Source: Vibrio japonicus
Lineage (GTDB): Bacteria > Pseudomonadota > Gammaproteobacteria > Enterobacterales > Vibrionaceae
Reading direction: 5' to 3'
Assembly: GCF_024582835.1 (NCBI RefSeq)
Contig: NZ_CP102097.1
Location: forward strand, 248,001-312,000
Length of the DNA stretch: 64,000 nucleotides
The notes beneath the pieces are model-generated. The model did no database searches. It had not been told where the DNA came from and saw only the letters and a program-made list of their open reading frames with translations. The position numbers and the translations under genes were made by a program. Below, piece by piece: positions 27,438 through 46,484 of the stretch (the first letter of the stretch is position 1; each line of letters opens with the position of its first letter).

Positions 27438-30272
27438 ATGTCTGACGACAACCGTACCCATCAAGATTCAGAGAAGATTGCGCTATCAGTGATACAAATT
27501 GTGCGTGATTTGGCGCTTGAGTTAGATCCCAACGCGTTCTCATCAATATCGCTGAGCTTGAAGAGCAACCTTGATAGTGACCTTGGCTTTGATAGCCTGA
27601 CCAGAGCTGAGCTGTTAACCCGCATTGAAAGTCACTTTCGCGTTTCGCTGCCAGAACACGCACTGGCCAATATTGAAACTCCTGAAAATATCGTCGCGGC
27701 GATAATGCAATCCTCCCCTGCAAACCAGGCGGCTTTACTCGAAACACAGGCCCAGCCCATCCATTTAGACAACGTTGAAAATCAGCCGACGGACGTGACG
27801 ACATTACAGCAGTTGCTCGACTGGCATGTGACGCATCACCCTGATCGGCCTCACCTCTATGTTTATCAAAACGCAGATCAAGTCGAAGAAATCAGCTACA
27901 AAAAGCTGAGGGACAAAGCGCTTGAGATTGCGGCGGGGTTGATGGAAGCAGGCGTCGAAGCGGGAGAGTGTGTCGCGATTATGCTGCCAACCAGCAATGA
28001 TTACTTTTACAGTTTTTTCGGAATCCTGTATGCCAGAGCGATACCTGTGCCTATCTATCCACCAGCCAGAATCCAGCAAATCGAGGACCATTTAAAACGC
28101 CACGCCAGTATCTTAAACAATGCACAAGCGAAGCTACTGATCACTGTGCCTGAAGCCAAAGCAGTTGCGCACTTGTTAAAATTGCAGGTTCCATCCATTG
28201 ATGCGGTTGTCACAGCAACTGAGCTAGCAAGTTCAGCAAACCTGCCAGAGACTGGCGCAGCAAAAAGCAGTGACACGGCCTTTCTTCAATACACCTCCGG
28301 CAGCACTGGAGTACCTAAAGGCGTCACCCTTACGCACTCGAACTTATTAGCGAACATTAGAGCAATGGGCAAGGTGGTCGGCGCTAACTCGGATGATGTT
28401 TTTGTCAGCTGGCTGCCCGTTTATCACGATATGGGGCTGATTGGGGCATGGCTTGGCAGCTTGTACCACGCGATCCCTTTGGTGATCATGTCTCCTTTGC
28501 TTTTCCTGACCAAGCCAGAGCGTTGGCTGTGGGCGATTCACCGTTACCGTGGCACACTCTCCCCCGCACCGAATTTTGCGTATGAGATTTGTGTCTCTCG
28601 GGTCAAAGAAAGCGATCTAGAAGGACTCGACCTCAGTAGTTGGCGACTGTCTTGGAATGGTGCAGAGCCCGTCAGTCCGCAATCTATCGCGAACTTTACT
28701 GAAAAATACGCCAAATACGGCTTTAAGCCCGAAACCATGTCTCCGGTTTATGGCTTGGCCGAATCTTCTGTCGGGCTAACATTTCCGGCAAACACCAGAA
28801 AGCCTCGTATCGAATATTTCCAAAGAGAAGCACTAACGCATTTTGGCCATGCAATTCCCGCTCGAAACCAAGACTCTGGCTCTATCCCCTTGGTGGGGTT
28901 AGGCCAACCACTCCCAGGTCATCAGATCCGCATTGTCGATGAGCTAGGTAAAGAGCTACCGGAAGGAGAAGAAGGCGCGCTCGAATTTAAAGGCCCGTCA
29001 GCCACGCAAGGCTATTATCGCAACCCAGACAAAACCAAAGCGCTGTATCACCACGACTGGCTAGTCACCGGCGACCGTGCGTTTACGATTGGTGGCGAGC
29101 TATTTCTAACCGGGCGCAGCAAAGACATCATTATCAAAGCGGGGAGAAACATTTACCCTCACGAACTAGAGCAAGCGGTAGGCAACGTAGAAGGGATACG
29201 CAAAGGCTGTGTCGCCGCCTTTGGCTGTCATGACCGACGTTCTGGCACTGAAAAGTTAGTCGTACTGGCTGAAAGCCGCGAGAGCGATGAAGAAAAAACA
29301 AAGCAGTTCAAGAAAGAGGTAAACAACCTGTCATGGAGCCTGCTCGGTAGCCCCGCTGACGACGTGGTCATTGCTCCCCCTCACACCATCCCTAAAACTT
29401 CCAGCGGAAAAATTCGCCGTAGCGCCTGCAAAGAGCTGTATGAACAAGGCGCTCTAAGCAAACAGACGCGAGCATTCTGGCTGCAAGCCATTCATTTAGC
29501 GACCGCTGGCATAGTGCCACAACTACGAAAATACACTCGCACCCTGCTGGATATCGGCTACGCCGCATACGCTTGGCTCATTTTTGGCTTGCTCGTTCCT
29601 GTGGTTTGGAGCCTTGTTGCTGTCATACCTAGCCAAGATTGGTGCTGGAAGACGGCGAGGCTGGGCGCGCGAGTTTTAATGCGAATGACGGGCACACACT
29701 GCAAGATTGAAGGACAAGAGCATCTGCAAGCCAAGAGCAACCCCTGCATTTTAGTCGCTAACCACTGCAGCTATTTGGATGGATTGGTACTGATTTCAGC
29801 AAGCGATTTAAAGTGTCGTTTTGTGGCCAAAAATGAGCTGACGCGTAACCCGTTTGCACGAATTTTTTTAACCAAACTCGGCACTGAGTTTGTCGAACGT
29901 TTTGATGCTGAGAAAAGTGTTGGGGATGCGCGAAAACTCTATGACAACGTGAAAGATTGTCGGCCACTTGTCGTGTTTCCAGAGGGCACCTTGTACCGAA
30001 TGGCGGGGCTGCATCCATTCCACATGGGCGCTTTCATTGCCGCGGTCAATTCTGGTGTACCTGTCATTCCCGTGACGATCTGCGGTACTCGCTCTAAGCT
30101 CCGAGGCAATTCTCTGTTTCCGCGCCGTGGCGATATCAGTATCAAAATTGGTGAGCCGCTCTACCCTGATGGAAACAACTGGAACGCCGCCATTGCACTC
30201 AGAGACAAAGCGCGAAGGCACATCTTACAGCATTGCGGCGAGCCCGATTTGGGCCATGAAGCGGTAAGGTAA
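27438..30272 (+). CDS. Three-domain fusion: acyl carrier protein - AMP-forming acyl ligase (FAAL/FadD-like) - PlsC acyltransferase
   Basis: A 944-aa multidomain enzyme. Residues about 12-95 form a carrier-protein domain with the phosphopantetheine Ser53 in LGFDSL. Residues about 120-675 form an adenylating ligase, with P-loop QYTSGSTGVPKGV near 284, LTGRSKDIIIKAGRNIYP and catalytic Lys658 in PKTSSGKIRR. A hydrophobic stretch about 706-730 may anchor it to the membrane. Residues about 750-925 form a PlsC acyltransferase with NHCSYLD (H776, D781) and FPEGT (847-851). The simplest reading is that it activates a fatty acid, loads it on its own carrier and hands it to an acceptor alcohol; the substrate and acceptor are unknown. 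Confidence 0.88.
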   Translation: MSDDNRTHQDSEKIALSVIQIVRDLALELDPNAFSSISLSLKSNLDSDLGFDSLTRAELLTRIESHFRVSLPEHALANIETPENIVAAIMQSSPANQAALLETQAQPIHLDNVENQPTDVTTLQQLLDWHVTHHPDRPHLYVYQNADQVEEISYKKLRDKALEIAAGLMEAGVEAGECVAIMLPTSNDYFYSFFGILYARAIPVPIYPPARIQQIEDHLKRHASILNNAQAKLLITVPEAKAVAHLLKLQVPSIDAVVTATELASSANLPETGAAKSSDTAFLQYTSGSTGVPKGVTLTHSNLLANIRAMGKVVGANSDDVFVSWLPVYHDMGLIGAWLGSLYHAIPLVIMSPLLFLTKPERWLWAIHRYRGTLSPAPNFAYEICVSRVKESDLEGLDLSSWRLSWNGAEPVSPQSIANFTEKYAKYGFKPETMSPVYGLAESSVGLTFPANTRKPRIEYFQREALTHFGHAIPARNQDSGSIPLVGLGQPLPGHQIRIVDELGKELPEGEEGALEFKGPSATQGYYRNPDKTKALYHHDWLVTGDRAFTIGGELFLTGRSKDIIIKAGRNIYPHELEQAVGNVEGIRKGCVAAFGCHDRRSGTEKLVVLAESRESDEEKTKQFKKEVNNLSWSLLGSPADDVVIAPPHTIPKTSSGKIRRSACKELYEQGALSKQTRAFWLQAIHLATAGIVPQLRKYTRTLLDIGYAAYAWLIFGLLVPVVWSLVAVIPSQDWCWKTARLGARVLMRMTGTHCKIEGQEHLQAKSNPCILVANHCSYLDGLVLISASDLKCRFVAKNELTRNPFARIFLTKLGTEFVERFDAEKSVGDARKLYDNVKDCRPLVVFPEGTLYRMAGLHPFHMGAFIAAVNSGVPVIPVTICGTRSKLRGNSLFPRRGDISIKIGEPLYPDGNNWNAAIALRDKARRHILQHCGEPDLGHEAVR

Positions 30273-30379
30273 GCAGCTACGTTATCCTCACAACGTTATC
30301 CACACACCGTTACCCACACTACGCGATACGAATGCTCTTCTATACTTGGAGTAAGGCACCGTCATGGAGGCATGTGACA

Positions 30380-30553
30380 ATGGATTTCACAGAAAAGCTG
30401 CGCTTAAAAGGTAAAGCGGAAGAAGACCTGTATTTCGCCGAATTGGACCGCCAACTGATCGATGCTATGCATAAAAAGACGCAACAGGAGCAAAACGGTT
30501 TTCAGCCAGAAAGCATGGACAATGTTCCGCCTCAGACCACACCAGGAAAATAG
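30380..30553 (+). CDS. Small conserved-looking protein of unknown function
   Basis: A 57-aa charged protein beginning MDFTEKLRLKGKAEEDLYF. It is helical and rich in Lys/Glu in the first 35 residues, with a disordered Gln/Pro-rich tail. GGAGG lies 9 bp before the ATG at 30380; an upstream in-frame ATG at 30332 has no SD. It lies between the fusion enzyme and the acetyl-CoA-synthetase-like gene on the same strand. No domain is recognised, and no function can be assigned. Confidence 0.6.
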   Translation: MDFTEKLRLKGKAEEDLYFAELDRQLIDAMHKKTQQEQNGFQPESMDNVPPQTTPGK

Positions 30554-30738
30554 CCTAGCTTGAGACCCGCAACTAAAATTGAGCACTCGTCCCTCGGTGC
30601 TCTCGGCTGTTTTAGCGTCATAAAAATAGAACATTAGCAAAATCTTAAACTCACGCTGGAAAAGCCCCCTCAATAAACCATACTTTTGTTACGTCTATTT
30701 CTCTCTGGGCAAGACTCTTTTTGTGCAGGACATCCAAT

Positions 30739-32466
30739 ATGGTTAAAACTATCTTTCACCAAGATTTAGCAGACAAGGCTAACTTTCAAATTGATGCACC
30801 CGCCCCAGCGCCAGAGGTAAAAGGGCTACCCAAAGGGGGATTGAATATTGGTTATGAAGCACTGGATAGCCATCTTGGACAGCCCACGCAAAACAAATTG
30901 GCGCTGCGTTGGATCAGCAAAGAGAACCACATCGTCGATTTCAGCTATCAAGCACTTTGTCAGCACACCAACCGTTTTGCTGATTTGCTGGATCAGCTCG
31001 GTTTAGCCAAAGGCAGCCGAGTCTTCACGCTGGCAGGCCGTAGACCTGAGCTTTATATTGCCGCGCTCGGCACACTCAAAGCCGGATGCGTTTTTACCCC
31101 GTTGTTTTCAGCCTTTGGGCCAGAGCCCATCCGCTCTCGCATGGAAATCGGTAACGCCAACCTGATTGTCACCACGCGCAGCTTGTACCGAAAAAAGCTC
31201 AAAAGCTGGTGGCAAGAGCTACCTCACCTAAAAGCGGTGCTGCTTATTGATGGCAATCCTGACAACGAGCCCGGCTGCTGCGATTACAGCGAACTGATGG
31301 AAAAGGCAGATCCAAACCGAGGCTGTGAAACTACTCAAGCAGAAGATATGGCCCTGCTGCATTTTACCAGCGGTACCACAGGCAAGCCCAAAGGAGTGAT
31401 CCACGTTCATCAAGCGGTGCAGCACCACATCCACTCCGCATTTTACGCGTTAGACCTCAAGCCCGATGACATCTATTGGTGCACCGCCGACCCTGGTTGG
31501 GTAACAGGCACGACCTACGGCATCATTGCCCCACTCTGCATGGGCGTCACCATGGTGATTGATGAAGCAGAGTTCGACGCCGAGCGCTGGTATCAGATCT
31601 TGCAAGAACAGCAGATCACTGTTTGGTACACCGCCCCCACGGCAATCCGGATGTTGATGAAAGTGGGTGATGCGTTAGCCAAACAGTACGCTAGACCCAA
31701 CTTGCGCTTTATGGCCAGTGTAGGAGAACCATTGAACCCAGAAGCGGTGGAATGGGGTGAGAAAGTATTTGGCATGCCGTTTCATGACAACTGGTGGCAA
31801 ACGGAAACAGGCGGCATCATGATTGCCAACTTCCCTAGCCAACCGATCAAGCCCGGCTCCATGGGTAAACCACTGCCCGGTATTGAAGCCGCCATAATAA
31901 ACACCAGCAATAGTAGTGAATTGCAGATGGAAACCCAGCCGATGCAAGTCGGCGAACTGGCACTCAAAACGGGTTGGCCTTCCATGTTCAGGGGCTACCT
32001 CAACCAAGCCGAAAAATACCAGTCCTGCTTTACCAACGGATGGTATCTCAGCGGTGACCTCGCCATGCGAGATGAAGACGGCTACTTCTGGTTTGTCGGC
32101 CGTAAAGACGACTTAATCAAATCGTCTGGACACTTAATCGGCCCTTTTGAAGTGGAAAGCGTGCTGATGGAACACCCAGCAGTCGCCGAAGCGGGAGTTA
32201 TCGGCATCCCCGACCCTGTAGCGGGTCAACTTGTTAAAGCCTTCGTCGCGCTGAAACCTGACATCACCGCCGATGAAGAACTGCAACAAGAACTGCTCGG
32301 ACTAGCGAGAAAACGGCTCGGCGCGGCGGTCGCTCCTAAAGAGATTGTCTTTCGTCACAACCTGCCTAAAACACGTAGCGGAAAAATTATGCGCCGTTTA
32401 CTTAAAGCTCGCGAACTCGGGCTCCCAGAAGGGGACATTTCTACATTGGAGAGCGATGAACAATGA
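30739..32466 (+). CDS. Acetyl-CoA synthetase-like AMP-forming ligase (short AcsA type)
   Basis: Adenylate-forming ligase of 575 aa that would convert acetate or another short acid to the acyl-CoA. P-loop [10 protein letters not shown] lies at about 210-219, with [15 protein letters not shown] and [10 protein letters not shown], the acetate-pocket segments of the Acs family. The C-terminal catalytic Lys is about 549 in [11 protein letters not shown]. It is shorter than the housekeeping Acs of about 650 aa and resembles the 570-aa AcsA group. A TTG 18 nt upstream is a less likely start. It overlaps the next gene by 4 bp, so it belongs to the dehydrogenase operon. Confidence 0.87.
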
Positions 32467-34490
32467 ATAAAAGGCTTCATATCAACCGCCAACATCTACT
32501 CGACCAGCTTGAAAAAATGCTCCGTATCCGCCGCTTTGAAGAAAAGTGCGCCGAGCTGTACGCCATGGAGAAAATTCGCGGTTTTCTTCATCTATATATC
32601 GGTGAAGAGGCGATAGCCGTCGGCGTGATGTCGGCGCTCAACCCAGACGACCAAGTCGTTGCCACGTATCGCGAGCATGGGCATGCGCTCGCCCGTGGGC
32701 TGAGTATGGATAGCGTCTTGGCAGAAATGTACGGCCGCGCGAACGGTTGCAGCCACGGGCGCGGCGGCTCGATGCACCTATTTGATAAAAACTTACGCTT
32801 TTACGGTGGCAACGCCATTGTCGGCGGAGGGCTACCCCTCGCCACAGGGCTCGCCATGGCCAATAAGAAAATGCACCGAGACGACATCGCGGTGTGCTTT
32901 TTTGGCGAAGGCGCTGTGGCCGAAGGGGAATTTCACGAAAGCCTCAACTTAGCTGCGCTGTGGAATCTTCCTGTCCTTTTTGTGTGTGAAAACAACCGCT
33001 ACGCCATGGGCACAGCACTCGCGCTTTCCGAATCCGAAACCAATATCGCTCAAAAAGCCAAAAGCTACGGCATAGAAGCCGCCCAAGTCGATGGCATGAA
33101 CGTGGTGGATGTGGAAGCCGCTGCCTCTGAAGCGGTCGATTTTATTCGCCAGAATCAAAAGCCTTATTTCATTGAATGCCAAACCTATCGCTTTCGAGGG
33201 CATTCGAGTTTTGATACTCAATTGTATCGCGATAAAAGTGAGGTCGCCCTGTGGGAAGAGAAAGGCCCAGTAAAACAGCTGATCTTATGGCTGAAGGAGA
33301 ACAACCACTTCCAAGATAACGAACTGACCGCCATCGAAAGCAAAATTGCGCAAGAGATCAACGACGCCATCGCGTTTGCCGAGAATGGCGAGTGGGAACC
33401 CGAAGAGCACCTGACTCGGTTTGTTCATAGCCCCAAAACCCAGCCCCCTGCTAGCCCGATACCGTCAAGCCAAGCTCCTGCTACCCTTACCTATCGAGAA
33501 GCATTACGCGCAGGCATTAGCGATGTACTAATCAGTGAACCACGCGCCTTTCTCATGGGTGAAGACGTCGGCCGTTATGGCGGCTGCTACGCGGTCAGCA
33601 AAGGGTTGTTTGACCAATTTGGAGCAGACAGGATCATAGACACTCCACTCTGCGAGTCTGGCTTTGTAGGCGTTGGGGTTGGCGCGGCACTGGGTGGGCT
33701 GCGCCCGATTGTCGAAGTGATGACGGTGAACTTTAGCTTGCTCGCCATGGATCAAATCATTAATACCGCCGCGACCTTACTGCACATGTCGGGCGGGCAG
33801 TTTAACGTCCCGATAGTGATCCGAATGGCGTGTGGCGCAGGCAAACAGCTTGCTGCGCAGCACTCGCACAGTTGGGAAAATTTCTATGCTCATGTTCCGG
33901 GCTTAAAAGTGCTTAGCCCCGCAACACACAATGACGCTCGCTACATGCTCTCTCAAGCGATGATAGACCCAGACCCTGTGCTCATTTTTGAACATGTCAT
34001 GCTGCTGAATGAAGAAGGACCAGTAAGCGCAGAGCCCGATGCCCCAATGAACCAAGCGCTGGTGCGCCGCGCAGGTACAGACGTTACTCTGATCACCTAC
34101 GGCGGCAGCCTTAGCAAAACCTTGCAAGCCGCTGAGCAACTGGCCAGCGAAGGCATTGACGCCGAAGTGGTAGACCTTCGCTCTCTCCGACCGCTGGATA
34201 CACCAACCATCATTGCGAGCGTCAGTAAAACCCACCGCGCCGTTATCAATGACGAGGGCTGGTACACGGGCAGCCTCGCGGGCGAAGTCAGTTCGATTAT
34301 TATGGAAAACGCGTTTTGGCAGTTGGATGCCCCCGTTCAACGCGTTTGCACCCAAGAAGTTCCGATTCCCTATCCTCATCATCTAGAACAAGCCGCTCTT
34401 CCTCAGTGTGACAAAATTGTGGCTGCAGCCAAAGCCACACTCGTGCTTCCCAATTGGCAAACAAACGAACGGAAGCCAGACAATGGATAA
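32463..34490 (+). CDS. 2-oxo acid (pyruvate/acetoin-type) dehydrogenase E1, alpha and beta chains fused
   Basis: ThDP-dependent E1 of 675 aa in one chain. Residues 1-320 match the alpha subunit, with [13 protein letters not shown] and the ThDP-binding [15 protein letters not shown] ... NN at about 148-178. A Pro/Ser-rich linker, about 322-341, leads to a beta half with [24 protein letters not shown] and DLRSLRPLD. It decarboxylates a 2-oxo acid and acylates the lipoyl domain of the E2 encoded next (8-bp overlap). Similarity is to the alpha2beta2 PDH/acetoin group, not the single-chain AceE of enterics and vibrios. The oxo acid used is not known; pyruvate is the first guess. Confidence 0.88.
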
Positions 34491-35775
34491 TACCGGACAC
34501 AATTCAGCACTGGTCGATATCACCATGCCTGCATTAGGGGCAGACATGCGTGACGGGACGTTAATTGAGTGGCTTGTTAAGCCCGGCGACCAAGTGGCAA
34601 AAGGCGACGTTATTGCAGTGATAGAAACCAGCAAAGGCGCGATAGAGGTGGAGTCCTACCACAGCGGCACCATTTTAGAATTGTTGGTGGAGCCAGAGAT
34701 CAAACTCCCTGTCGGTAGCGTGATGGCAAGAATGGAAAGCGATAGCGCAACCAATGACGCCGTCTCTGAAAACGCCTCCTCCGAAGAAAAGGAAGCCGAA
34801 GCCGCAGCCAAAAACATGGATGTGATTCAGGCATCTCAGCCGAGTGATACACCTTTGCCTCCGTACATCGCGCCTAAAACACAACGCGATGCAACAAACG
34901 CAAATCAGACGCATAGGCCGCTAGCCTCCCCTGCTGCGCGCCACCAAGCACATCAATTAGCGCTAGACTTGTCTGCCTTGAGCGGCAGCGGGCCACAAGG
35001 TGCGGTGATTTTGCGGGATCTCGCCACGCTGACAGAGGGAAGCATCGAGAAAGTCGTAGAGAGTCCAAGCCGAGAAAATACCAGCCCTACGTCTACACCG
35101 CCTATCGCGCCCCCTTCGCCGATGCGCCAAGCGATCAGTGATGCCATGACGCGCTCAAAACGGGAAATCCCTCACTACTACCTTGCGTTAGACATCAATC
35201 TAACCAAAGCGCAGCATTGGCTGACTGAGCAGAATCAGAATCGCGAACCAGAGCAACGCATCCTCCTACCCGCGTTAATACTCAGTGCCATCGCCCGTCA
35301 ACTGACTCGCTTTCCGCAACTGAATGGTTTTTATGATGAAGGGCATTTCACCCCTTCAGCGCAAGTGAACATTGCCAACACCATTAGCCTTCGTGAAGGT
35401 GGGCTTGTGACCCCCGCGATTCTCAATGCAGACAGCCTCTCCTTGGCGCAAACCATGGACGCCTTACGCGACTTAACCGAACGAGCTAGGCATGGGCGGC
35501 TTCGCAGCTCGGAAATCAGCCAAGGCACCATTACCGTCACCAGCATTGGCGAGCGCGGAGCGGACATGATCACTGGCGTAATTTACCCGCCTCAAGTGGC
35601 CATCATCGGTTTGGGTCAAGCGCGTAAAGCCCCCATCGTACAAGGCGAAACGGTTGAAATCGGCGATGTCTTGACCGTAACGCTCGCCGCTGACCATCGA
35701 GTGAGTGATGGCATCAACGGCGCACGCTTTCTACATGCGCTCGCCAAACAACTGCAACATCCGGAGGCACTATGA
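34483..35775 (+). CDS. 2-oxo acid dehydrogenase E2 (lipoyl acyltransferase)
   Basis: A 430-aa E2 with one N-terminal lipoyl domain (lipoyl Lys51 in [13 protein letters not shown]). A long acidic linker follows, then a peripheral-subunit-binding domain ([16 protein letters not shown], about 145-180). The catalytic domain ends in ADHRVSDG (His405, Asp409), the acyltransferase motif. The start at 34483 has GGAAG upstream. It overlaps the E1 gene by 8 bp and the ACP gene by 4 bp. No E3 gene accompanies it, so a housekeeping Lpd must reoxidise the lipoyl group. Confidence 0.88.
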
Positions 35776-36017
35776 ACAACGACGATATCTCAACGGTTAT
35801 CGCTGAGGCTTTGGCCCACATCGCACCCGAAATCGAAGTCAGTGACATCGACCTCAATGAAGACTTGCGGGAAGAGTGCGATCTCGACTCGATGGACTTT
35901 CTCAATCTGTTGGCCTCGCTCAAGAAAAGCACTGGGGTCAATATCCCCGAGAGTGATTACGCCAAAGTTCGTAGCTACAACCAGTTGCACGAGTATTTGC
36001 AGCAACATGGCAAATAA
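35772..36017 (+). CDS. Stand-alone acyl carrier protein
   Basis: An 81-aa acidic carrier protein. The phosphopantetheine attachment Ser40 lies in CDLDSMDF, in place of the usual DSL. The four-helix pattern is clear and the C-terminal helix NQLHEYL is intact. Its ATG overlaps the E2 stop, so it is made with the dehydrogenase. It differs in sequence from the carrier domain of the 944-aa fusion. An acyl carrier coupled to an E2 gene is unusual; it may accept the acyl group from E2 or feed the acyltransferase, both inference. Confidence 0.85.
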   Translation: MNNDDISTVIAEALAHIAPEIEVSDIDLNEDLREECDLDSMDFLNLLASLKKSTGVNIPESDYAKVRSYNQLHEYLQQHGK

Positions 36018-36123
36018 ACGCCGTGCTCATTCACGAATGTTATTCACTCACGTACCAGACGAACCAAAACCATAAGAGTAACGCGGTGGCTTAAACGACA
36101 TCACCCAAATAAGGATTAACACC

Positions 36124-38562
36124 ATGCAGGCAGAGACTACGCAACCGTTGATTTATCGCTTTCACTATCTCCACGCGAGTGATATTGCCTTGGTCGGCGG
36201 TAAGAACGCCAACTTAGGGGAAATGATCAGTCAACTTAGCCAATCTGGTATCCGTGTGCCAGAGGGCTTTGCAACCAGCGCGCAACTGTATCGAGACTTC
36301 CTACATCAAAACGAGTTGGATGTGCCGATCGCCTCAATTCTCAGTGCGATGGATAAGGGCGTTCTCAGCCTAGCGGAAGCCGCCAAAGAGATCCGAACGT
36401 TAATCCAAAATAGTCATTTCACCCCTGCCCAAGAAACACTGATTCTTGACGCGTACCATGAGCTGAGTGAGCGCATCGGCGTCCCGTTGGCTTCTGTCGC
36501 AGTGCGCAGCTCAGCCACTGCAGAAGATCTACCCGGCGCCAGTTTCGCGGGTCAACAAGAGAGCTACCTCAATATTCGCGGCGATGCTGATTTGCTAGAG
36601 GCGTGTAAGCAGTGCTTCGCCTCGCTGTATACCGATCGCGCTATTGTTTACCGCCAAGAACAAGGGTTTGAGCACCAGCAAGTCGCGCTGTCTATCGGAA
36701 TACAGCAGATGATTGAATCAGAATGCTCGGGGGTGATGTTTAGCCTAGATACCGAGAGCGGCTTTCCCGATGTCGTGATCATCAACGGCAGTTGGGGGCT
36801 GGGTGAAACCATTGTGAAAGGCTCAGTGACACCCGATCGATTTATGGTTTACAAGCCACTACTAGAGCGCGGAAAAACGCCGATTATCGAAAAGCAGCTG
36901 GGCAACAAATTAGAAAAAATGCTGTTCAACAGCGCAGATGGTGAAGCTCCGACGATTACGCTGCCAACCACTGAAGCCGAGCGTAATCAGTTGGTGATCA
37001 ATGATGAAGAGATACTGCAACTTAGCCAATGGGCGATGACGATTGAACGTCATTACGGTTGCGCTATGGACATGGAGTGGGCCAAAGATAGCCACAGCCA
37101 CAAGCTGTACCTTGTGCAAGCAAGGCCCGAAACCGTTGAAAGCCGTAAAAACAGTGCGGTGCTGGTGAACTACCAGTTAGAGAAAACCTCGAACCCTATT
37201 TTGCTCGAAGGAGCGAGCGTCGGTAGCTCCATCGCGGTCGGCCAAACGTATACCATCATGTCACCGGATGATATTGCCGAGTTCCCCGAAGGGGCGATCC
37301 TCGTGACTGAACGCACCGACCCCGATTGGGTGCCCTTGATGCGAAAAGCAGCGGGCATCATCACTGACTCTGGCGGGCCAACCAGCCACGCGGCCATTGT
37401 GAGCCGAGAGCTCAAAGTCCCGGCGATTGTTGGTACTGAACACGCCACACAGACCCTCACTTCTGGCCAAACCGTCACCTTAAGCTGCGCCAAAGGAACC
37501 ACGGGGCAAGTGTACGACGGTGTGGTTAACTACACTACGCAAGAGATCGATCTCACGTCGTTGCCAGAGACTAAGACTCACATCATGATCAATGCCGCCA
37601 TGCCTGATGGCATTTTCCACTGGTGGCAACTGCCTAACGCGGGTGTGGGTTTAACTCGGATTGAGTTCATCATCTCCAGTCAAATTGGCCTGCACCCTAT
37701 GGCGCTTCTCTACCCGGAGAAAGTCACTGATACCGATGTGGCTCAAGCGATTCAGCAGCGATGCTCAGGGGTGGCTACTCTGCCTGATTTTTTCGTTGAT
37801 AATCTCGCGCGAGGCGTCGGGAAAATTGCCGCAAGTCAGTACCCCAAACCTGTGATTGTCCGCATGTCTGATTTTAAGTCCAATGAGTACCGTGGCTTGC
37901 TCGGCGGTCAGTTTTTTGAACTCAATGAAGAAAACCCCATGCTTGGGCTAAGAGGCGCATCCCGCTACTACCACCCTCGCTATCAAGAAGCGTTTCAGCT
38001 CGAATGTAAGGCGATACTGAAAGCCAGAGAAGAAATGGGGTTTGATAACATCATCGTCATGATCCCGTTTTGCCGCACGGTCAATGAAGCCGACAAAGTG
38101 CTTGAGGTGATGGCAGCAGCCGGACTCAAACGGGGTGACAATGGTCTAGAGGTCTATGTGATGTGTGAAATCCCTTCCAATGTCATTCTCGCGGATCGTT
38201 TTGCCGAACGGTTTGACGGGTTCTCAATCGGCAGCAACGACTTAACCCAGTTAGTGTTAGGGATTGACCGCGACTCCGCAGAACTGAAACCGATGTTTGA
38301 TGCGCGAGATGACGCGGTGAAAAGTTTAATTGAGCAGGTCATTCAGGTCGCACACAGTAAAAGGAGAAAAGTGGGGATTTGTGGTCAAGCCCCTTCCGAT
38401 CACCCCGAGTTCGCCGAATTTCTTGTAACTTGCGGGATTGATTCGATATCGCTCAACCCCGACTCCTTTGCCAAAGGGTGCGAAGTGGTAGCCAAAGTGG
38501 AGCATGTTCTTGCTCAACAAACCAATCAGAAAGCGAATCAACAAGCCAAACCAAAAAACTGA
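36124..38562 (+). CDS. ppsA: Phosphoenolpyruvate synthase
   Basis: Converts pyruvate, ATP and water to PEP, AMP and phosphate. The 812-aa protein has the N-terminal ATP-grasp domain (VGGKNANLGEM, VRSSATAEDLPGASFAGQQE) and the swivelling phosphohistidine domain (GGPTSHAAIVSREL, His422). The C-terminal PEP-binding barrel has GSNDLTQLVLG and GICGQAPSD with the catalytic Cys. AAGGA lies before the ATG. It follows the ACP gene by 106 bp. The intact barrel argues against a rifampin-phosphotransferase relative. Confidence 0.93.
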   Translation: MQAETTQPLIYRFHYLHASDIALVGGKNANLGEMISQLSQSGIRVPEGFATSAQLYRDFLHQNELDVPIASILSAMDKGVLSLAEAAKEIRTLIQNSHFTPAQETLILDAYHELSERIGVPLASVAVRSSATAEDLPGASFAGQQESYLNIRGDADLLEACKQCFASLYTDRAIVYRQEQGFEHQQVALSIGIQQMIESECSGVMFSLDTESGFPDVVIINGSWGLGETIVKGSVTPDRFMVYKPLLERGKTPIIEKQLGNKLEKMLFNSADGEAPTITLPTTEAERNQLVINDEEILQLSQWAMTIERHYGCAMDMEWAKDSHSHKLYLVQARPETVESRKNSAVLVNYQLEKTSNPILLEGASVGSSIAVGQTYTIMSPDDIAEFPEGAILVTERTDPDWVPLMRKAAGIITDSGGPTSHAAIVSRELKVPAIVGTEHATQTLTSGQTVTLSCAKGTTGQVYDGVVNYTTQEIDLTSLPETKTHIMINAAMPDGIFHWWQLPNAGVGLTRIEFIISSQIGLHPMALLYPEKVTDTDVAQAIQQRCSGVATLPDFFVDNLARGVGKIAASQYPKPVIVRMSDFKSNEYRGLLGGQFFELNEENPMLGLRGASRYYHPRYQEAFQLECKAILKAREEMGFDNIIVMIPFCRTVNEADKVLEVMAAAGLKRGDNGLEVYVMCEIPSNVILADRFAERFDGFSIGSNDLTQLVLGIDRDSAELKPMFDARDDAVKSLIEQVIQVAHSKRRKVGICGQAPSDHPEFAEFLVTCGIDSISLNPDSFAKGCEVVAKVEHVLAQQTNQKANQQAKPKN

Positions 38563-38663: not shown

Positions 38664-39485
38664 TTACGAAAAAAGCCCTTTTGCATCGCTCCAACGAAAG
38701 GTTGGCCCTTGTTTGCATACATAATGATTTTTTAAGTAACAGTGCCCACACAAACCAACCGCGCAGTGCATGCGTCGCTCCAGCGATAGGTAGATCGCGT
38801 CTTCGCTCATGCCGTGATGAAGCAAACAGCCAACCACACTGTGCATCATAGGTTCTGGCCCAGAGATCAAAGCGCGGTCTGGAAGTTCAGCAAAGGTCTC
38901 TAACACTTTGGGTAAAACGCTGAGTGCAGTGCCTCGGTAATACCCCTGCCCCTCTAAGCCGGAAATGTTTTCAACTACATTGAAAATAGGCACATGGTGC
39001 TGCCAACGTTCGCGTTCAGGATTCAGCATGAGTGTATTTTTACTGCGAGTGGCGTACATCACCACCAGCTCTTCGTAGCTGTCTTGTTCGATAAGGCTGT
39101 CAACAGTGCTCACCAAAGGCGCCATACCACAGCCGCCCCCAATCACGAGCACTTTTTTATCGGCCAAGTCGTTGGTCAGCCACCCTTGGCCAAACGGCCC
39201 GCGAGCGCCGAGCACCTCTCCACTCGCTTTAGTGAACAACGCATGGGTGACTTGCCCCATTTTACGTACCAGAGCGCGAAAGTGTCCGGACTCATCCGGC
39301 AGTTCAGTGAAGGTAAATGGCGCTTCACCCACGCCAGGTACGCACAGCATAAAAAACTGGCCGCTTTGTGCTCGCAACCAAGCCGGAGCGTCTTCAAGTA
39401 AGCGAAAGTGATAGTGACGGGTATCTTCTCCATCATCATAAAAATCGATAATTTCAATACGGTTTGGGGTTAGGCTATACATCAT
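38664..39485 (-). CDS. FAD/NAD(P)-binding oxidoreductase with 2Fe-2S site (hydrogenase gamma / AsrB-like)
   Basis: Electron-transfer subunit of 273 aa. It has an N-terminal FAD domain, an NAD(P) domain with VLVIGGGCGMAPL, and a C-terminal Cys cluster MHCAVGLCGHCYLKNHYVC (Cys241, 246, 249, 257) for a 2Fe-2S centre as in dihydroorotate dehydrogenase B and sulfhydrogenase gamma. It would pass electrons between NAD(P) and the Fe-S protein encoded just upstream, with which it overlaps by 11 bp. The start at 39485 has AAGGA 6 bp upstream; the frame opens earlier with TTG. Confidence 0.85.
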   Translation of the reverse strand: MMYSLTPNRIEIIDFYDDGEDTRHYHFRLLEDAPAWLRAQSGQFFMLCVPGVGEAPFTFTELPDESGHFRALVRKMGQVTHALFTKASGEVLGARGPFGQGWLTNDLADKKVLVIGGGCGMAPLVSTVDSLIEQDSYEELVVMYATRSKNTLMLNPERERWQHHVPIFNVVENISGLEGQGYYRGTALSVLPKVLETFAELPDRALISGPEPMMHSVVGCLLHHGMSEDAIYLSLERRMHCAVGLCGHCYLKNHYVCKQGPTFRWSDAKGLFS

Positions 39486-40527
39486 CAGCAATCCTTTTCA
39501 TTAATGAATGCACTCCAATCACACCGGGGCAAGTCTGCTCGCAGCGACCGCACCCTACACAGCCATACCGACCAAACTCTGCGACAAAATCCACGCTGAA
39601 TTTGTGATACCAAAAGCGCTCGACCCTTTTCCCTGCCTCTTTGGATGGATTGTGAAAGCTCGCCTCTCGCTGGAAGCCTTCATATAAGCAGGAATCCCAA
39701 AATCGTACTTGGGTGGTATTCGAGGTATTTGTATTAGACATTTTGCTATCAGACCTATCCGTTGCGGTGACTGAGCGTGTGCCATAACAAGAGCAAGTCG
39801 GACACAGCGTGGTACAGCCTGAACACCCTAAACACTGAATGCCAACTTGTTGCCAGAACGCCTCTGACACCTTGCTCTGTGACACTTTGCTGATGCCATC
39901 AACAAGGTACTGGTGGTCAGGAAAAGCCTGTTCGCATTGCGTTGTGTGCTCCCATCGCTGGCTGCTCTCATGGGCCGTCGCCACTTTCAGATCCAAGCCT
40001 TGTAATGACGCTTCACCGCGCTTGGAAAGCACCACAAGTAACCAGTGTTGCTCGTCCAATGGATGCAGCACCAAATCGGCGGTTTCATCACGCACGCTGG
40101 GGCCAGCGTTTACCGTCGGGCAAAACCCATGCTCACACGGGTGAATGCAGTCTAGGCCAACGAGCAGTACTTTCTCTCTACGCGCCTGATAATAAGGGTC
40201 TTGTTCGAAAAATTCGTCTTGATAGCGAATTGCCACCAAATCGCAGCTTTGCACGCCAAACAGGACAAACGGCTCTACGTTCGGTAACGTCTCTTTAAAC
40301 AACTGACCATCAAAAACGTACAGAGGTTCCTGTTCGGCAAAGAAGAAGGATTTGGCTGAATGCGTCGGCTGACGATGGATTAGCGGCGGTCGTTCATCAC
40401 CACTCACTTGCTGCCAAAAGCATTCACTCTGTGCCCCTTCTCGGTCTTCGACCACTTGGTAGAGAGTTCGGCTTTGTAACAGATGCGCTCGCAGTGCATC
40501 TAACGAATCGAGCAGGTAAGTCATCAT
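39475..40527 (-). CDS. 4Fe-4S dicluster electron-transfer protein (sulfhydrogenase beta / AsrA-like)
   Basis: Soluble Fe-S protein of 350 aa. A long N-terminal domain includes FGVQSCDLVAIRYQDEFF and a Cys-containing GLDCIHPCEHGFCP. Two ferredoxin-like motifs follow, Cys232-235-238-242 (CLGCSGCTTLCP) and Cys323-326-329-333 (CVGCGRCEQTCP). Homologues pair with the flavin subunit in sulfhydrogenases and anaerobic sulfite reductase, but no hydrogenase or AsrC subunit is present here. A stretch rich in Ser/Thr/Asn near 255-275 looks like a disordered insertion. The ATG overlaps the formate dehydrogenase stop codon (ATGATGA). Confidence 0.83.
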   Translation of the reverse strand: MMTYLLDSLDALRAHLLQSRTLYQVVEDREGAQSECFWQQVSGDERPPLIHRQPTHSAKSFFFAEQEPLYVFDGQLFKETLPNVEPFVLFGVQSCDLVAIRYQDEFFEQDPYYQARREKVLLVGLDCIHPCEHGFCPTVNAGPSVRDETADLVLHPLDEQHWLLVVLSKRGEASLQGLDLKVATAHESSQRWEHTTQCEQAFPDHQYLVDGISKVSQSKVSEAFWQQVGIQCLGCSGCTTLCPTCSCYGTRSVTATDRSDSKMSNTNTSNTTQVRFWDSCLYEGFQREASFHNPSKEAGKRVERFWYHKFSVDFVAEFGRYGCVGCGRCEQTCPGVIGVHSLMKRIADDV

Positions 40528-42716
40528 TCTGTTTCTTCCCCCTGTAGCTGCCAAATCGCACTTGGCTGATGCCCGGCTGGCAGCACTTCAACGGCGACCG
40601 CACACGCTTTTAGTTCCGGCATTTTGGTGATTGGGTCTTGCGCGGTATTGGTAAGCTGGTTCGATGGCGCTTCTTTAAAGTGATACGGCATACTCACGAC
40701 CCCTGGCGGCACATCCGTACTAATCATGGCACGCGTTTCGATATACCCACGCCGCGAACGCACCCCGACCGGGCTATACAATGCAATACCAAGTCGGTCA
40801 GCATCCTGCGGATGAATAAACAAGATCCCAGGGGGAATTTCGCGCTCAAGCAATGGAGACTTACGCGTCATCGAGCCACAGCCGTAGTGAAAATGCAGCC
40901 GATTGGTGGTGAGAATCAGTGGGTATTGCTCATCCGTGGATTCGGCAATCGGCACATAGTGCACCGGGGTGAGGCGCGCACGGCCAATCGGGAAGGTCTT
41001 TTGGTGGAGAACCGCAGTCCCCTCTGGCGCGCTCTCATTGCATGGCCATTGCAAACCGTCATGTTCGGCGAGTTTGGTATAGGTCATCCCTTGATAAGAT
41101 GGCGTTAACGCGGCCATTTCATCGAACACCTCTTCACTGTTTGTCCAGCTTAACGCGTGGCTACCCATTTTTTCTGCCAGCGCTTGCAACCATTGCCAAT
41201 CCGCTTTGGACTCACCTAACGGTGACATCGCGGGGTTGATTCGCTGCACGCGGCGTTCGCAGTTGGTAAACGTGCCCGACTTTTCGGCAAAAGAAGCGGC
41301 GGGAAGAATGTAGTCGGCCAATTTGGCGGTTTCTGTCATGGTCAGCTCAGCGACCACCAGCAAATCAAGCGATTTATAGGCCTCACGAACGTGATTTTGG
41401 TCTGGGTCGGTGACTACGGGATCTTCACCAAACAGGATTTGAGCGCGGGAGCTTCCTGCTAACGCGGCTTTGGTCATGCCCAATGAGGTCAGCCCTGGCG
41501 ATGATGCCACCTCGCAACCCCAACGCTCGGAAAAGCGTTGCTGCATGGCGGGATCGTCAACCCGTTGATACCCAGGGTACACGTTAGGCAGGCACCCCAT
41601 ATCACACGCGCCTTGAACGTTGTTTTGGCCGCGCAGAGGATTAATGCCCGAACCGGATTTACCCATCTGCCCACAAATCAGCGCCAAATCCGCCAAAGCA
41701 ATCACATTGGATGTTCCGCTGACAAACTGAGTAATCCCCATGCCATAGAAGATCATGGATCGATCAGCTTGGCTATACGCTTGCGCGGCTTGGCGAATCT
41801 GCTCGGAATCAATCCCAGTAATACTCTCTACAGATTCTGGTGTGATGTTTTCGACCTGTTTTTTTAGTGCCTCAAAGCCTTCACAGCGATTGGCGATAAA
41901 ATCCTTGTCATGCCACTGATTACTGATGATCACCTGCATCATGGCGTTAATCAGCGCAATATTAGAGCCTGGGTTGAGTTGCAAGTGCAAATCCGCCAGC
42001 TTCGCTAATCGAGTCACGCGCGGGTCAATCACGATCAGTTTGGCGCCTTCCAATTTGGCGCGCATGATCTGCCCACCCAATACGCTATGGTTGGAGGTTG
42101 GGTCTGCGCCAATCACCACGATCACTTGCGCTTCAAACAGATCTTTCGCGCTGTTGGTCATGGCTCCAGAACCCAGCACTTGTTTCAGGCCCGCCACGGT
42201 TGGGCTGTGGCAAATACGAGCGCAGTGATCGATATTGTTGGTGCCTAACACCGCTCTCGCAAATTTCTGCGCCGCGTAATTATCTTCATTAGTTGCCCGC
42301 GCACTACTGATCACCCCTGTCGCGTTGGGGCCAAATTCCTCAATAATCTCTGTAAGTGCTTCGCTTATTTCACTCAGAGCTTCATCCCAACTTACAGCAA
42401 CAAATCCATCACGACTGCGTTTTAACGGCTGAGTAATACGATTATCGGGCGAAATGGCATAAATGCTGCTCCAACCCTTTTCGCACAACTTGCCTTGGCT
42501 AATCGGGTGATGGGCCAACGGGCTAACGCCACTCACTTGCCCTTGCTCATTGCAGGAAAGCAGCATCCCACACCCAACACCACAAAATGGGCAGATGGTT
42601 TGAACAGTTCGGGATTGTATAGAGAGCGGGTTATCTTGGTTTGCAGGTGTGGACTGCAAGGAGTTTGAGAGAGGAGAAGTGGGTGCCTGTGAAGATTGTT
42701 GCTGATGAGATTTCAT
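40524..42716 (-). CDS. fdhF: Molybdenum formate dehydrogenase, catalytic subunit (Cys type)
   Basis: Oxidises formate to CO2 (or the reverse) at a bis-MGD molybdenum centre. The 730-aa chain has the N-terminal 4Fe-4S motif CPFCGVGC ... GKLCEKG (Cys42, 45, 49, 78). The metal ligand is Cys169 in HCARICHSPTVAGL, where E. coli FdhH has selenocysteine; the codon is TGC. The C-terminal molybdopterin domain ends near residue 715. The first 38 residues are a Gln/Ser-rich extension with no Tat signal, so it is cytoplasmic. Its partners are the two downstream electron-transfer genes and, upstream, the FNT channel. Confidence 0.92.
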   Translation of the reverse strand: MKSHQQQSSQAPTSPLSNSLQSTPANQDNPLSIQSRTVQTICPFCGVGCGMLLSCNEQGQVSGVSPLAHHPISQGKLCEKGWSSIYAISPDNRITQPLKRSRDGFVAVSWDEALSEISEALTEIIEEFGPNATGVISSARATNEDNYAAQKFARAVLGTNNIDHCARICHSPTVAGLKQVLGSGAMTNSAKDLFEAQVIVVIGADPTSNHSVLGGQIMRAKLEGAKLIVIDPRVTRLAKLADLHLQLNPGSNIALINAMMQVIISNQWHDKDFIANRCEGFEALKKQVENITPESVESITGIDSEQIRQAAQAYSQADRSMIFYGMGITQFVSGTSNVIALADLALICGQMGKSGSGINPLRGQNNVQGACDMGCLPNVYPGYQRVDDPAMQQRFSERWGCEVASSPGLTSLGMTKAALAGSSRAQILFGEDPVVTDPDQNHVREAYKSLDLLVVAELTMTETAKLADYILPAASFAEKSGTFTNCERRVQRINPAMSPLGESKADWQWLQALAEKMGSHALSWTNSEEVFDEMAALTPSYQGMTYTKLAEHDGLQWPCNESAPEGTAVLHQKTFPIGRARLTPVHYVPIAESTDEQYPLILTTNRLHFHYGCGSMTRKSPLLEREIPPGILFIHPQDADRLGIALYSPVGVRSRRGYIETRAMISTDVPPGVVSMPYHFKEAPSNQLTNTAQDPITKMPELKACAVAVEVLPAGHQPSAIWQLQGEETE

Positions 42717-42834
42717 AGCCTTAACCTTGCTACCTGAAACTAGCTAAATTATAGCAGCCCCACTCAAACTCGCCGTAAAGTCGAGCGTTTCCTCTTTCAG
42801 AAATGACGTTTAATTTGGGATGTTTTATCCCACA

Positions 42835-43662
42835 CTAACTGGGATTATCACTATGCCCACGCAGATAAATAATGTGATACACCAAACCGACAAACACACT
42901 GCCACCGACAAGGTTACCTAAGATAACCGGCACCAAATTACCAAGAAAACCAAGTACACCTACCGCGTTTGCGACCTCTACCGTGCCGGAGCTTTGCAGC
43001 ATCATGGCTAAAGGAATAAAGTACATATTAGCAATGCTGTGTTCAAAGCCTGCCGCGACAAACGCAGAGATTGGAAAAACAATCGCCACCGCTTTATCCA
43101 CCACGCTTCGGCCCGCCAGCGCCATCCAAACCGCCATGCACACCAACACATTACACAACACGCCGCGGAAAAAAGCCGTCCAGAAAGGCATGTCACATTT
43201 GGCAGCGGCAATTTTTGCGTAAGTCAGCGCGATCGCGCCTTGGTTCATTTCTGGGTGTCCGGACAGAAACACCAGAGCCGCCACCCCAACGGCGCCGACA
43301 AAATTGGACAGGCACACAACCACCCAATTTTTTAATAGCTCACCCGTGGTGATTTTTTTATCGGCCCACGCCATCGCCAACAAGTTATTGCCGGTAAACA
43401 GTTCTGCGCCCGCGACAATCACCAAAATCAACCCCAAAGAAAAGGTCAATCCGCCTAGCACTTGCTGCGTAGCAAAGCCAAGCGAGGCATCCGATTTCAC
43501 GAGAGTAAAATACATTCCACCCAAGCCGATAAAGGCACCAGCCAAAATTCCGAGCATCACCATAGACAGCAGCGGCAAACGCGCTTTAGTCACGCCAATA
43601 GAGTCTACTTTCTCTGCGATTTGTTTCGGTGAAAAAGAATCGAACCCATAAATATCAGCCAC
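42835..43662 (-). CDS. Formate/nitrite transporter family channel
   Basis: Inner-membrane FNT-family protein of 275 aa with six hydrophobic segments. It carries the family motif GLGGMYFTLVKS, AELFTGNNLLAMAWADKKI and GFEHSIANMYFIP, whose His is the central residue of the pore. It starts with GTG at 43662, with AGGAG 6 bp upstream. The adjacent formate dehydrogenase 118 bp downstream makes formate the likely substrate. A small hairpin (tgggat ... atccca, 42816-42832) follows the stop. Confidence 0.9.
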   Translation of the reverse strand: MADIYGFDSFSPKQIAEKVDSIGVTKARLPLLSMVMLGILAGAFIGLGGMYFTLVKSDASLGFATQQVLGGLTFSLGLILVIVAGAELFTGNNLLAMAWADKKITTGELLKNWVVVCLSNFVGAVGVAALVFLSGHPEMNQGAIALTYAKIAAAKCDMPFWTAFFRGVLCNVLVCMAVWMALAGRSVVDKAVAIVFPISAFVAAGFEHSIANMYFIPLAMMLQSSGTVEVANAVGVLGFLGNLVPVILGNLVGGSVFVGLVYHIIYLRGHSDNPS

Positions 43663-43754: not shown

Positions 43755-46484
43755 ATGACAGAGTCCAGCCACCCGTGGCACAGTCAATCCGTCGAGGACA
43801 CCTTTTCTGCCCTCTCCAGCCAACCCAACGGATTAGAGCCACAGGAAGCCTCGCAACGCTTAGCCCAGTATGGATTGAACAAACTTCCAACCTCTCACGG
43901 GCGCACCGTTTTTCAGCGCTTTATCGCTCAGTTTCACAATGTATTAATTCACGTTTTACTGGTTGTGATGGTCATTACCGCGCTACTCAACCACTGGGTG
44001 GATGCGGGCGTTATCGCAGGGGTGGTCGTGATCAATGCGATCATCGGTTTTCTCCAAGAAGGGAAAGCAGAAACCGCGCTCAACGCCATTCAAGCCATGC
44101 TCGCCCCAACCGCCTTGGTGTTACGCGGCGGGCATCAGGTCAATCTTAAAGCCGAAGAGCTGGTGGTGGGAGATGTGGTCATTCTGCAATCGGGTGACCG
44201 AGTGCCTGCCGATCTCCGGTTGTTCCGCAGCAAAGGGCTACAAGTCGCGGAAGCTGTCTTAACCGGAGAATCGCTCGCAACTGAAAAGAATATTAACCCC
44301 GTGAGCCAAAAGAGTGCTTTGGCCGACCGAGACTGCATGGCGTATTCAGGCACCATGATTACCCACGGACAAGGTTCCGGCGTGGTTGTCGCAACGGGGC
44401 TCAATACCGAACTGGGCAAAATCAGTTCGCTGGTTTCTCGCGTAAAACCAGCCACAACCCCACTACTGAAACAAATCGCACAGTTTAGCCAATGGTTGAC
44501 CGTTGCGATCTTAGTGGTAGCGGTTGCAACGTTTGCCTTTGGCTTGCTGGTGCGCGGCTACCCAATAACGGATATGTTCCTAGCCGCGATCAGTCTAGCC
44601 GTGGCGGCGATCCCAGAGGGGTTACCTGCGATCATGACCATCACCCTCGCGATTGGAGTGGAGCGAATGGCCAAACGCAATGCGATCATTCGCCGACTCC
44701 CCGCGGTGGAAACCCTAGGCTCTGTGACCGTCATTTGCACCGATAAAACCGGCACACTGACTCGCAATGAAATGACGGTGACAAAGATCGTCACGGCGAA
44801 TGAGCAATTCGAACTCAGTGGTACAGGCTACGATCCTCATGGCGTTGTGACGATCAATCAGCAGGCCATCTACCCCGAACAAAAGCCGCTGCTGATTCAC
44901 ACCGTTCGTGCAGCAGTGTTATGCAACGACGCAACTCTCCAGCATCAGAATGAACAGTGGCAAATTCAGGGCGACCCGATGGAAGGGGCGCTTCTGGTCG
45001 CAGGAGAAAAAGCTGGGTTAGATTCAAAAACGGAACACCAACTCTGCCCGCGCACGGATCTGATCCCATTCGAATCAGAACACCGCTTTATGGCGACACT
45101 GCACCATAACCATAAGGGTGAAGCGTTTGTTTTTCTTAAAGGTGCGCCTGAGCGTGTGCTCGATATTTGTAGTCATCAAATGATCAACCCTGCCACACAT
45201 AACGAGACATCCTTGCATCTACAAACAACCGCTCTAGACCGTACTTATTGGCAAAAGCAGATTGATGCGATGGCAAAACGGGGAATGCGGGTTTTGGCGA
45301 TGGCCTACCGTCCGGCGGAATACGAGCACATCGAACTGACCTTTGATGACGTGCGCGACAATCTCATCCTGTTAGGGCTATTTGGTTTTATCGACCCGCC
45401 AAGAGACGAAGCCATACAAGCCGTGAAAGCGTGTAACCAAGCAGGCATACGCGTAAAAATGATGACGGGCGATCATGTGTTAACGGCCAAAGCGATTGCT
45501 CAACAAATCGGCCTTATCAATACCCAAGACTCGCTTACGGGCCTGCAAATTGATGCTCTCAATGATGAGGAGTTATTCGCCGTCGCCAGAGACATTGATA
45601 TCTACGCCCGAGTGAGCCCAGAGCATAAAATGCGGCTGGTCGATACGCTGCAAAAGCATCACCAAGTCGTGGCAATGACGGGGGACGGCGTCAATGATGC
45701 GCCAGCACTCAAGCGCTCTGACATCGGCACTGCCATGGGACTGAATGGCACCGCCTCGGCCAAAGAAGCAGCAGAAATGGTACTCACGGATGACAATTTC
45801 GCCTCCATTACTGCGGCAGTTGAAGAAGGACGAGCGGTTTACGACAACTTGAAAAAGGCCATTTTGTTTATTCTCCCAACCAACGGAGGCGAAGCACTGG
45901 TCATCTTATCGACCGTAGTGTTGGGATTTAAAGATCTGCCACTCACACCGATTCAAATTCTGTGGGTCAATATGATCACCGCCGTCACACTCGCTTTATC
46001 TTTGGCTTTCGAACCCAAAGAGCACAATTTAATGCAGCGTGCACCACGATCTCCTGATACTCCTATCCTCACCTCACACCTTATTTGGCGAGTTTGTTTT
46101 GTCTCCATCATTCTTATGTTGGGCACGTTGGGAATGTTTGTATGGGAGATGGCCCAGCAAGAAGATATCGACAGAGCTCGGACAATCGCGGTGAATACAT
46201 TGGTGATGTTTGAAGTGTTTTATCTGTTTAATTCCCGCTTCATTTTAAACAGCATATTTTGTCGTCGAGGTCTTACTGGCAATGTCTATGTGTTAATCGC
46301 CATTGCGGTGCTTATGGTGTTTCAAGCCGGCTTCACTTACCTGCCTATAATGCAAACGCTGTTTGGCACCCAAGCGTTAGAATTCGAAGTCTGGCTACGA
46401 ATAGTATTGGTCGCGTCGTCTGCCCTCTTTTTAGTTGAGCTCGAAAAATACTATTTGAGAAGGACAGCCCGAATTCGGTGCTAG
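43755..46484 (+). CDS. Cation-transporting P-type ATPase (P2A, Ca2+-type or related)
   Basis: Membrane cation pump of 909 aa, normal length for P2 ATPases. It has an N-terminal cation-ATPase domain, TM4 with [18 protein letters not shown], the phosphorylation site [28 protein letters not shown] and a C-terminal group of about six TM segments. IPEGLP in TM4 is typical of the Ca2+, Na+/K+-like and H+/K+-like pumps and excludes heavy-metal P1B pumps. The ion cannot be decided by eye. It is divergent from the FNT gene across 92 bp. Confidence 0.88.

Follow-up and report, generated by a model that had tools for sequence, protein, structure and literature searches.

Coenzyme A (CoA) is the taught carrier of central carbon metabolism. 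In polyketide or tetronate clusters, E2-like enzymes load carrier proteins. Acs1 of Syntrophus, an AMP-forming acetyl-CoA synthetase, is reported to run in reverse with CoA (PMC4992975). Here we analyse a unit of four overlapping genes in Vibrio japonicus (assembly GCF_024582835.1, contig NZ_CP102097.1, positions 248,001 to 312,000), which encodes an acetate ligase (AcsA), the E1 and E2 components of a pyruvate dehydrogenase (PDH) and a free acyl carrier protein (ACP). The window below means that whole stretch of 64,000 nucleotides, with positions counted from its first letter, and the cassette means the four-gene unit. ACP is likely to act in the cassette as an acyl acceptor in place of CoA. 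The four genes are as follows.

30739..32466, + strand: AcsA-like acetate ligase, core gene 1 (ATG start; NF003313 above cut-off)
32463..34490, + strand: fused E1 alpha-beta, pyruvate dehydrogenase type, core gene 2 (TIGR03182 and NF006667 above cut-off)
34483..35775, + strand: E2 acyltransferase with lipoyl, E3-binding and catalytic domains, core gene 3 (Pfam; start assumed)
35772..36017, + strand: acyl carrier protein, 81 amino acids (aa), core gene 4 (PF00550 above gathering score)

The first-pass annotation of this DNA had reported overlaps of 4, 8 and 4 bp between AcsA and E1, E1 and E2, and E2 and ACP, and these are present in the sequence. Since a gap of 466 bp separates an upstream ACP-ligase-PlsC fusion gene from AcsA, and one of 106 bp separates ACP from a downstream phosphoenolpyruvate (PEP) synthase gene, the overlapping genes are these four alone. 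The unit holds no E3 gene, in agreement with the earlier description of a 2-oxo acid dehydrogenase lacking E3.

Conservation was assessed at 35 loci besides the window (14, 12 and 9 plasmid loci) and then at 10 plasmid and 18 Vibrionaceae loci, making 63; counts out of 36 below refer to the window with the first set and counts out of 28 to the second set. An E1 was taken as cassette-type at about 54% identity or more. Such an E1 was found in 11 other genomes out of 369 in a class sample, in 3 others out of 61 relatives, in 13 others out of 398 in a phylum sample (one of them already found), and in plasmid records. AcsA, E1, E2 and ACP were all present at 63/63 other loci with a cassette-type E1, 19 of which are plasmid records, and the hosts comprised alpha-, beta- and gamma-proteobacteria and actinobacteria, marine vibrios and soil actinomycetes among them. 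Gene order and strand were identical in the 35/35 loci measured, and the E2/ACP overlap was exactly 4 bp in 29/36 cassettes, with starts chosen by script. The AcsA-E1-E2-ACP core is firmly conserved, and the conservation beyond close relatives that the first-pass annotation had raised holds from proteobacteria to actinobacteria. Across loci, the pairwise identities of the core genes rise and fall together (correlations of 0.29 to 0.69, with none of 500 permutations as high), which co-inheritance and plain kinship would give alike.

For plasmids, the 30 best E1 records were considered and 19 retrieved, with 284 weaker records set aside; nine of the ten later plasmid loci were retrieved through the identifiers of ACP matches, and all ten are also in the plasmid E1 list. 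A search for the cassette ACP across 72,556 plasmids matched 32 records; the 30 best E1 records account for 28 of these, and each of the 11 best E1 records outside the 19 retrieved has an ACP match. Named plasmid hosts include Methylocystis, Sulfitobacter, Leisingera, Tropicibacter, Sinorhizobium, Azospirillum, Cupriavidus, Burkholderia, Photobacterium, Rhodococcus, Embleya and Streptomyces. Distribution is patchy, with the cassette in 26 of 296 Vibrionaceae genomes. From this patchiness and the plasmid records we infer that the cassette is a mobile operon, apparently moving horizontally.

The four ACP-match records outside the 30 best E1 records are Rhodococcus plasmids, and AcsA was not found at the three of these loci that were retrieved (L226-L228). 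At L226 and L227, E1 and E2 remnants precede ACP amid Hsp20, ClpB, encapsulin and Dyp peroxidase genes; this stretch is probably a decayed cassette.

The window E1 scores above cut-off for TIGR03182 (437.4 bits vs 393.85) and NF006667 (387.4 vs 321), and its best solved relatives are the alpha and beta chains of mitochondrial PDH E1. Cassette E1 beta chains (n=36, window included) form a single clade with support of 99/98 against an outgroup of ordinary E1s (17 rows, 14 distinct). The alpha and beta parts are fused in 9/36 cassettes (the window, L132, L153, L158, L160, L175, L176, L177 and L182) and mostly separate elsewhere. On the tree, three changes of the fused state are required, which implies repeated gain or loss of the fusion. 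Seven loci with ordinary E1 (L146-L150, L074 and L081) gave no match to the cassette ACP profile, with positive controls detected in 6/6 cases.

Pfam places a lipoyl, an E3-binding and a catalytic domain in E2, the last with its HxxxDG motif. The lipoyl lysine (Lys51) and the catalytic histidine (His405) are kept in 36/36 and 28/28 cassettes, and Asp409 in 35/36 and 26/28. Arg304 of E2 is cassette-specific, being present in 36/36 and 28/28; the other E2s that the genome holds elsewhere have Thr, Thr and Ser at this position. In the E3-binding domain, the GR[IV] motif is without its Arg in 36/36 cassettes. Human E3-binding protein also lacks that Arg, and we abandoned the reading of this change as a loss of E3 binding. 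One lipoamide dehydrogenase over the family cut-off is encoded elsewhere in the genome.

AcsA matches the NCBIfam acetate-CoA ligase family NF003313 with 888.7 bits against a cut-off of 729 and is of the PRK04319 type. Its catalytic lysine (in SGK) is kept in 36/36 and 28/28 cassettes, and the Trp414 equivalent is also conserved. The equivalent of the A8-loop arginine (Arg526 in Salmonella numbering) is Leu in 36/36 and 27/28 cassettes (one was missed by the pattern). Two further AcsA relatives in the genome, at 34-36% identity and called Acs and PrpE by resemblance, have Arg there.

The ACP matches PF00550 (PP-binding) with 33.8 bits, above the gathering score of 20.8, and its phosphopantetheine serine (Ser40) is present in 36/36 and 28/28 cassettes. 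No further gene family recurred beside the cassette in more than 3 of 14 loci, so the partners of ACP likely lie within the unit or in general metabolism. With no other family recurring more widely, and with the pantetheine thiol of CoA as the usual substrate of both E2 and AcsA, these two enzymes are the simplest partners. We infer that acetyl-ACP is an intermediate shared by E2 and AcsA.

The mechanism as a whole would run as follows. E1 is predicted from its family to decarboxylate pyruvate and to pass the acetyl group to the lipoyl arm of E2, which would transfer it to the ACP phosphopantetheine. AcsA would then exchange acetyl-ACP with acetate: when energy is short, toward acetate and ATP, the latter from AMP and pyrophosphate; when acetate is plentiful, it may instead load acetate onto ACP. 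Reduced lipoyl groups would be reoxidised by the shared lipoamide dehydrogenase of the cell. We rate this mechanism, with pyruvate-derived acetyl loaded on ACP by E1/E2 and then exchanged by the ligase with acetate and ATP, as the most likely one, at a probability of about 0.45. The first-pass annotation had proposed a carbon module joining acetate, pyruvate and PEP, and the gene set supports such a module, with PEP often included and with the ACP adjoining E2. Charging of the ACP by E2 or the ligase, also put forward there, would still be the preferred reading.

Neither this gene set nor carrier loading by such enzymes was described in the literature searched, which lacks most subscription journals; the novelty of the AcsA-E1-E2-ACP unit is for that reason probable, not certain. 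The first-pass annotation, too, had named no described system with this combination, and the same literature yielded none.

Sequence upstream of acsA bears on when the cassette may be used. A perfect FNR-type box (TTGAY-N4-RTCAA) lies within 350 bp of acsA at 13/35 loci, compared with 3 of 522 upstream regions of mechanically called open reading frames (ORFs) in 20 control stretches (Fisher p 1e-14) and with 0.02 per 36 in shuffled sequence; it was also present at 1/9 further plasmid loci. Allowing up to one mismatch, no box was found at the 19 Vibrionaceae loci, window included. These counts back putative oxygen control in part of the family, but give it no support for the Vibrio copy.

Stress-related neighbours were also recorded. 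At Leisingera plasmid loci, stress genes accompany a gene for a Crp/Fnr regulator. The cassette of Rhodococcus DK17 stands with ppsA, a 1-phosphofructokinase family kinase, a universal stress protein, a GAF sensor kinase, a response regulator and a trehalose phosphatase. Candidate DosR-like boxes at two actinobacterial loci carry two mismatches. Stress genes (Usp, Hsp20 and others) were near the cassette at 11/35 loci vs 1/20 controls; we rejected this count as proof of a stress linkage because its seeds had been taken from six of the same loci.

A wider reading of these data, which we advance only tentatively, is that a protein takes the place of CoA as the acyl acceptor of a PDH. E2 and the acetate ligase would share ACP as a private acetyl pool, with which oxygen-limited cells could convert pyruvate to acetate and form ATP from AMP while sparing CoA. 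Where PEP synthase adjoins, a PEP-to-acetate route would regenerate ATP from AMP twice, and plasmids would have carried the system from phylum to phylum. If true, the cassette would be a separate acetyl currency beside CoA, likely used at low oxygen.

Several observations weigh against the proposed mechanism. AcsA scores over the cut-off for acetate-CoA ligases and retains the Arg584 equivalent in 36/36 cassettes, both of which fit the use of CoA, and Arg526 is not known to be restricted to CoA-using members of the superfamily. E2 retains the catalytic motif of CoA-using E2s. Among 151 candidates no protein fusing E2 to ACP was found at E 0.001 or better. The Vibrionaceae loci lack the FNR-type box, and without the six seed-supplying loci the stress-gene count falls to 5/29, vs 1/20 controls and 4/80 loci of the ACP-ligase-PlsC fusion.

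The same enzyme features underlie the best-surviving alternative, which we regard as rather unlikely: a second PDH and acetate ligase making ordinary acetyl-CoA, with ACP in an accessory role, for example as a source of octanoyl groups when this E2 is lipoylated, or in regulating how the complex assembles. The AcsA score, the Arg584 equivalent and the intact catalytic residues of E2 all suit this view, and LipB is known to take octanoyl from ACP (PMC9307952). However, the core of the unit contains no gene for lipoylation, and short stretches around the genome's other E2s gave no match to the cassette ACP profile (positive controls 6/6). The ordinary route would also leave the cassette-specific residues of AcsA and E2 unexplained.

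The remaining alternatives involve the neighbours of the cassette, which are as follows in the window.

27438..30272, + strand: ACP - acyl-AMP ligase - PlsC fusion, 944 aa, optional neighbour (Pfam)
30332..30553, + strand: 73-aa ORF of doubtful coding status (no Pfam or NCBIfam match)
36124..38562, + strand: PEP synthase, frequent but optional neighbour (TIGR01418 above cut-off)
38664..42716, - strand: formate dehydrogenase unit (FAD/NAD, FeS and molybdopterin subunits), convergent to the cassette (families)

The first-pass annotation had counted seven genes on one strand. The ORFs are real at their positions on the + strand; the seventh gene, the 73-aa ORF, is unsupported, since it matches no Pfam or NCBIfam family and has homologues at 0/35 cassette loci and 0/18 Vibrionaceae cassette loci. 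A formate/nitrite channel stands next to the formate dehydrogenase subunits (38664-43662, - strand, convergent to the cassette). Further along, a calcium-type P-type ATPase is encoded at 43755-46484 (+ strand), relatives of which at ~50% identity adjoin the cassette at L264 (in two pieces) and L265, and a protein with a C-terminal PEP-CTERM sorting motif at 46721-47389 (- strand). Scans of the window with Rfam and for tRNAs gave no matches, as did a search of a phage collection, and promoter and terminator sites were within the spread of shuffled sequences.

PEP synthase lies near the cassette at 14/18 other Vibrionaceae loci, once in two open frames and twice with intervening genes, and at 4/35 other loci, for which 1/20 control stretches serve as a yardstick; cassette loci of Cupriavidus, Leisingera and Rhodococcus also have the gene. 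It is thus a frequent neighbour in Vibrionaceae and an optional one elsewhere. The genome has a second PEP synthase at 50% identity. At L255 (Vibrionaceae G1000) the PEP synthase beside the cassette is in two overlapping open frames, perhaps through a frameshift or sequencing error. At least part of the formate dehydrogenase unit is close to the cassette at 13/18 Vibrionaceae loci, several of them cut by the end of the stretch.

These neighbours would suit a reductive direction, in which AcsA activates acetate, E2 and E1 run backwards to carboxylate it to pyruvate with reducing power from formate dehydrogenase, and PEP synthase pulls the product to PEP. The Vibrionaceae counts, the formate/nitrite channel that follows in the window and the PEP synthase genes of the other three genera favour it. 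Yet PEP synthase outside Vibrionaceae is not above background in these counts, and the reverse reaction of such thiamine-lipoyl decarboxylases is energetically disfavoured. The reductive direction is quite improbable.

The fusion consists of a PP-binding domain, an AMP-binding domain of the fatty acyl-AMP ligase type and a PlsC acyltransferase domain. Among 296 Vibrionaceae genomes it occurs in 32, and both fusion and cassette occur in 19 (Fisher p 4e-16, uncorrected for kinship). Close relatives of both the cassette E2 and the fusion are also present in Vibrio natriegens. Cupriavidus KK10 and C. oxalaticus share an arrangement on one strand of PEP synthase, AcsA, E1 alpha, E1 beta, E2, ACP and fusion, a second AMP ligase preceding the fusion in KK10; in Cupriavidus USMAHM13 the fusion is followed by AcsA to ACP, so that fusion and cassette adjoin in three Cupriavidus plasmids in total. 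Outside Vibrionaceae, the fusion is present in 1/25 cassette genomes, and the phylum sample has it in 6/398 genomes, that of the window included.

Fusion loci were examined as the best 80 named of at least 587 confirmed relatives, many on short contigs, where neighbours are undercounted. The cassette stood beside the fusion at 0/80, and the cassette ACP profile had no match among separate ORFs of <400 aa there. At L053, L074 and L081 the fusion is accompanied by ordinary E1 or E2 alone, at 24-41% identity. No conserved partner was found within 5 kb, the best being one transporter family at 6/72 loci. This arrangement resembles the LplT-Aas pair.

Despite the association in Vibrionaceae and Cupriavidus, the 1/25 and 0/80 counts mark the fusion as a widespread separate enzyme and an optional partner of the cassette, although the link is not pure chance. 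A conserved operon of all seven genes was rejected on the 0/80 count. Nor is the fusion supported as an obligate part, being away from the cassette at 34/35 loci of the first set and not found in 24/25 non-Vibrionaceae cassette genomes. Assembly of a lipid or other product, with the cassette charging ACP with an acyl group that the PlsC domain hands to a lipid or other acceptor, is very improbable: the Vibrionaceae co-occurrence and the Cupriavidus plasmids favour it, but the 1/25 and 0/80 counts and the fusion's own ACP domain oppose it, and the PlsC transfer to lipid suggested earlier found no specific support.

Compared with described systems, the cassette resembles the hypoxia regulon of the DosR type in actinobacteria in its Rhodococcus DK17 neighbours; it differs in the AcsA-E1-E2-ACP genes themselves, since no such cassette is known to belong to the DosR regulon. 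It shares with polyketide or tetronate clusters an E2-type acyltransferase adjoining an ACP; unlike those clusters, no assembly gene recurs beside it. With the PDH complex of heterotetrameric E1 (TIGR03182 / PRK09212 type) it has in common the E1 alpha and beta domains, a lipoyl E2, an E3-binding domain and HxxxDG. It departs from that complex in lacking an E3 gene and the GR[IV] Arg (36/36), in its E1 fusions (9/36) and in having its own ACP and acetate ligase at 63/63 loci. Finally, cassette AcsA is like AMP-forming acetyl-CoA synthetases of the PRK04319 type in its family score, catalytic lysine and Trp414 equivalent, and unlike them in carrying Leu at the Arg526 equivalent and in its genetic linkage to a PDH and an ACP.

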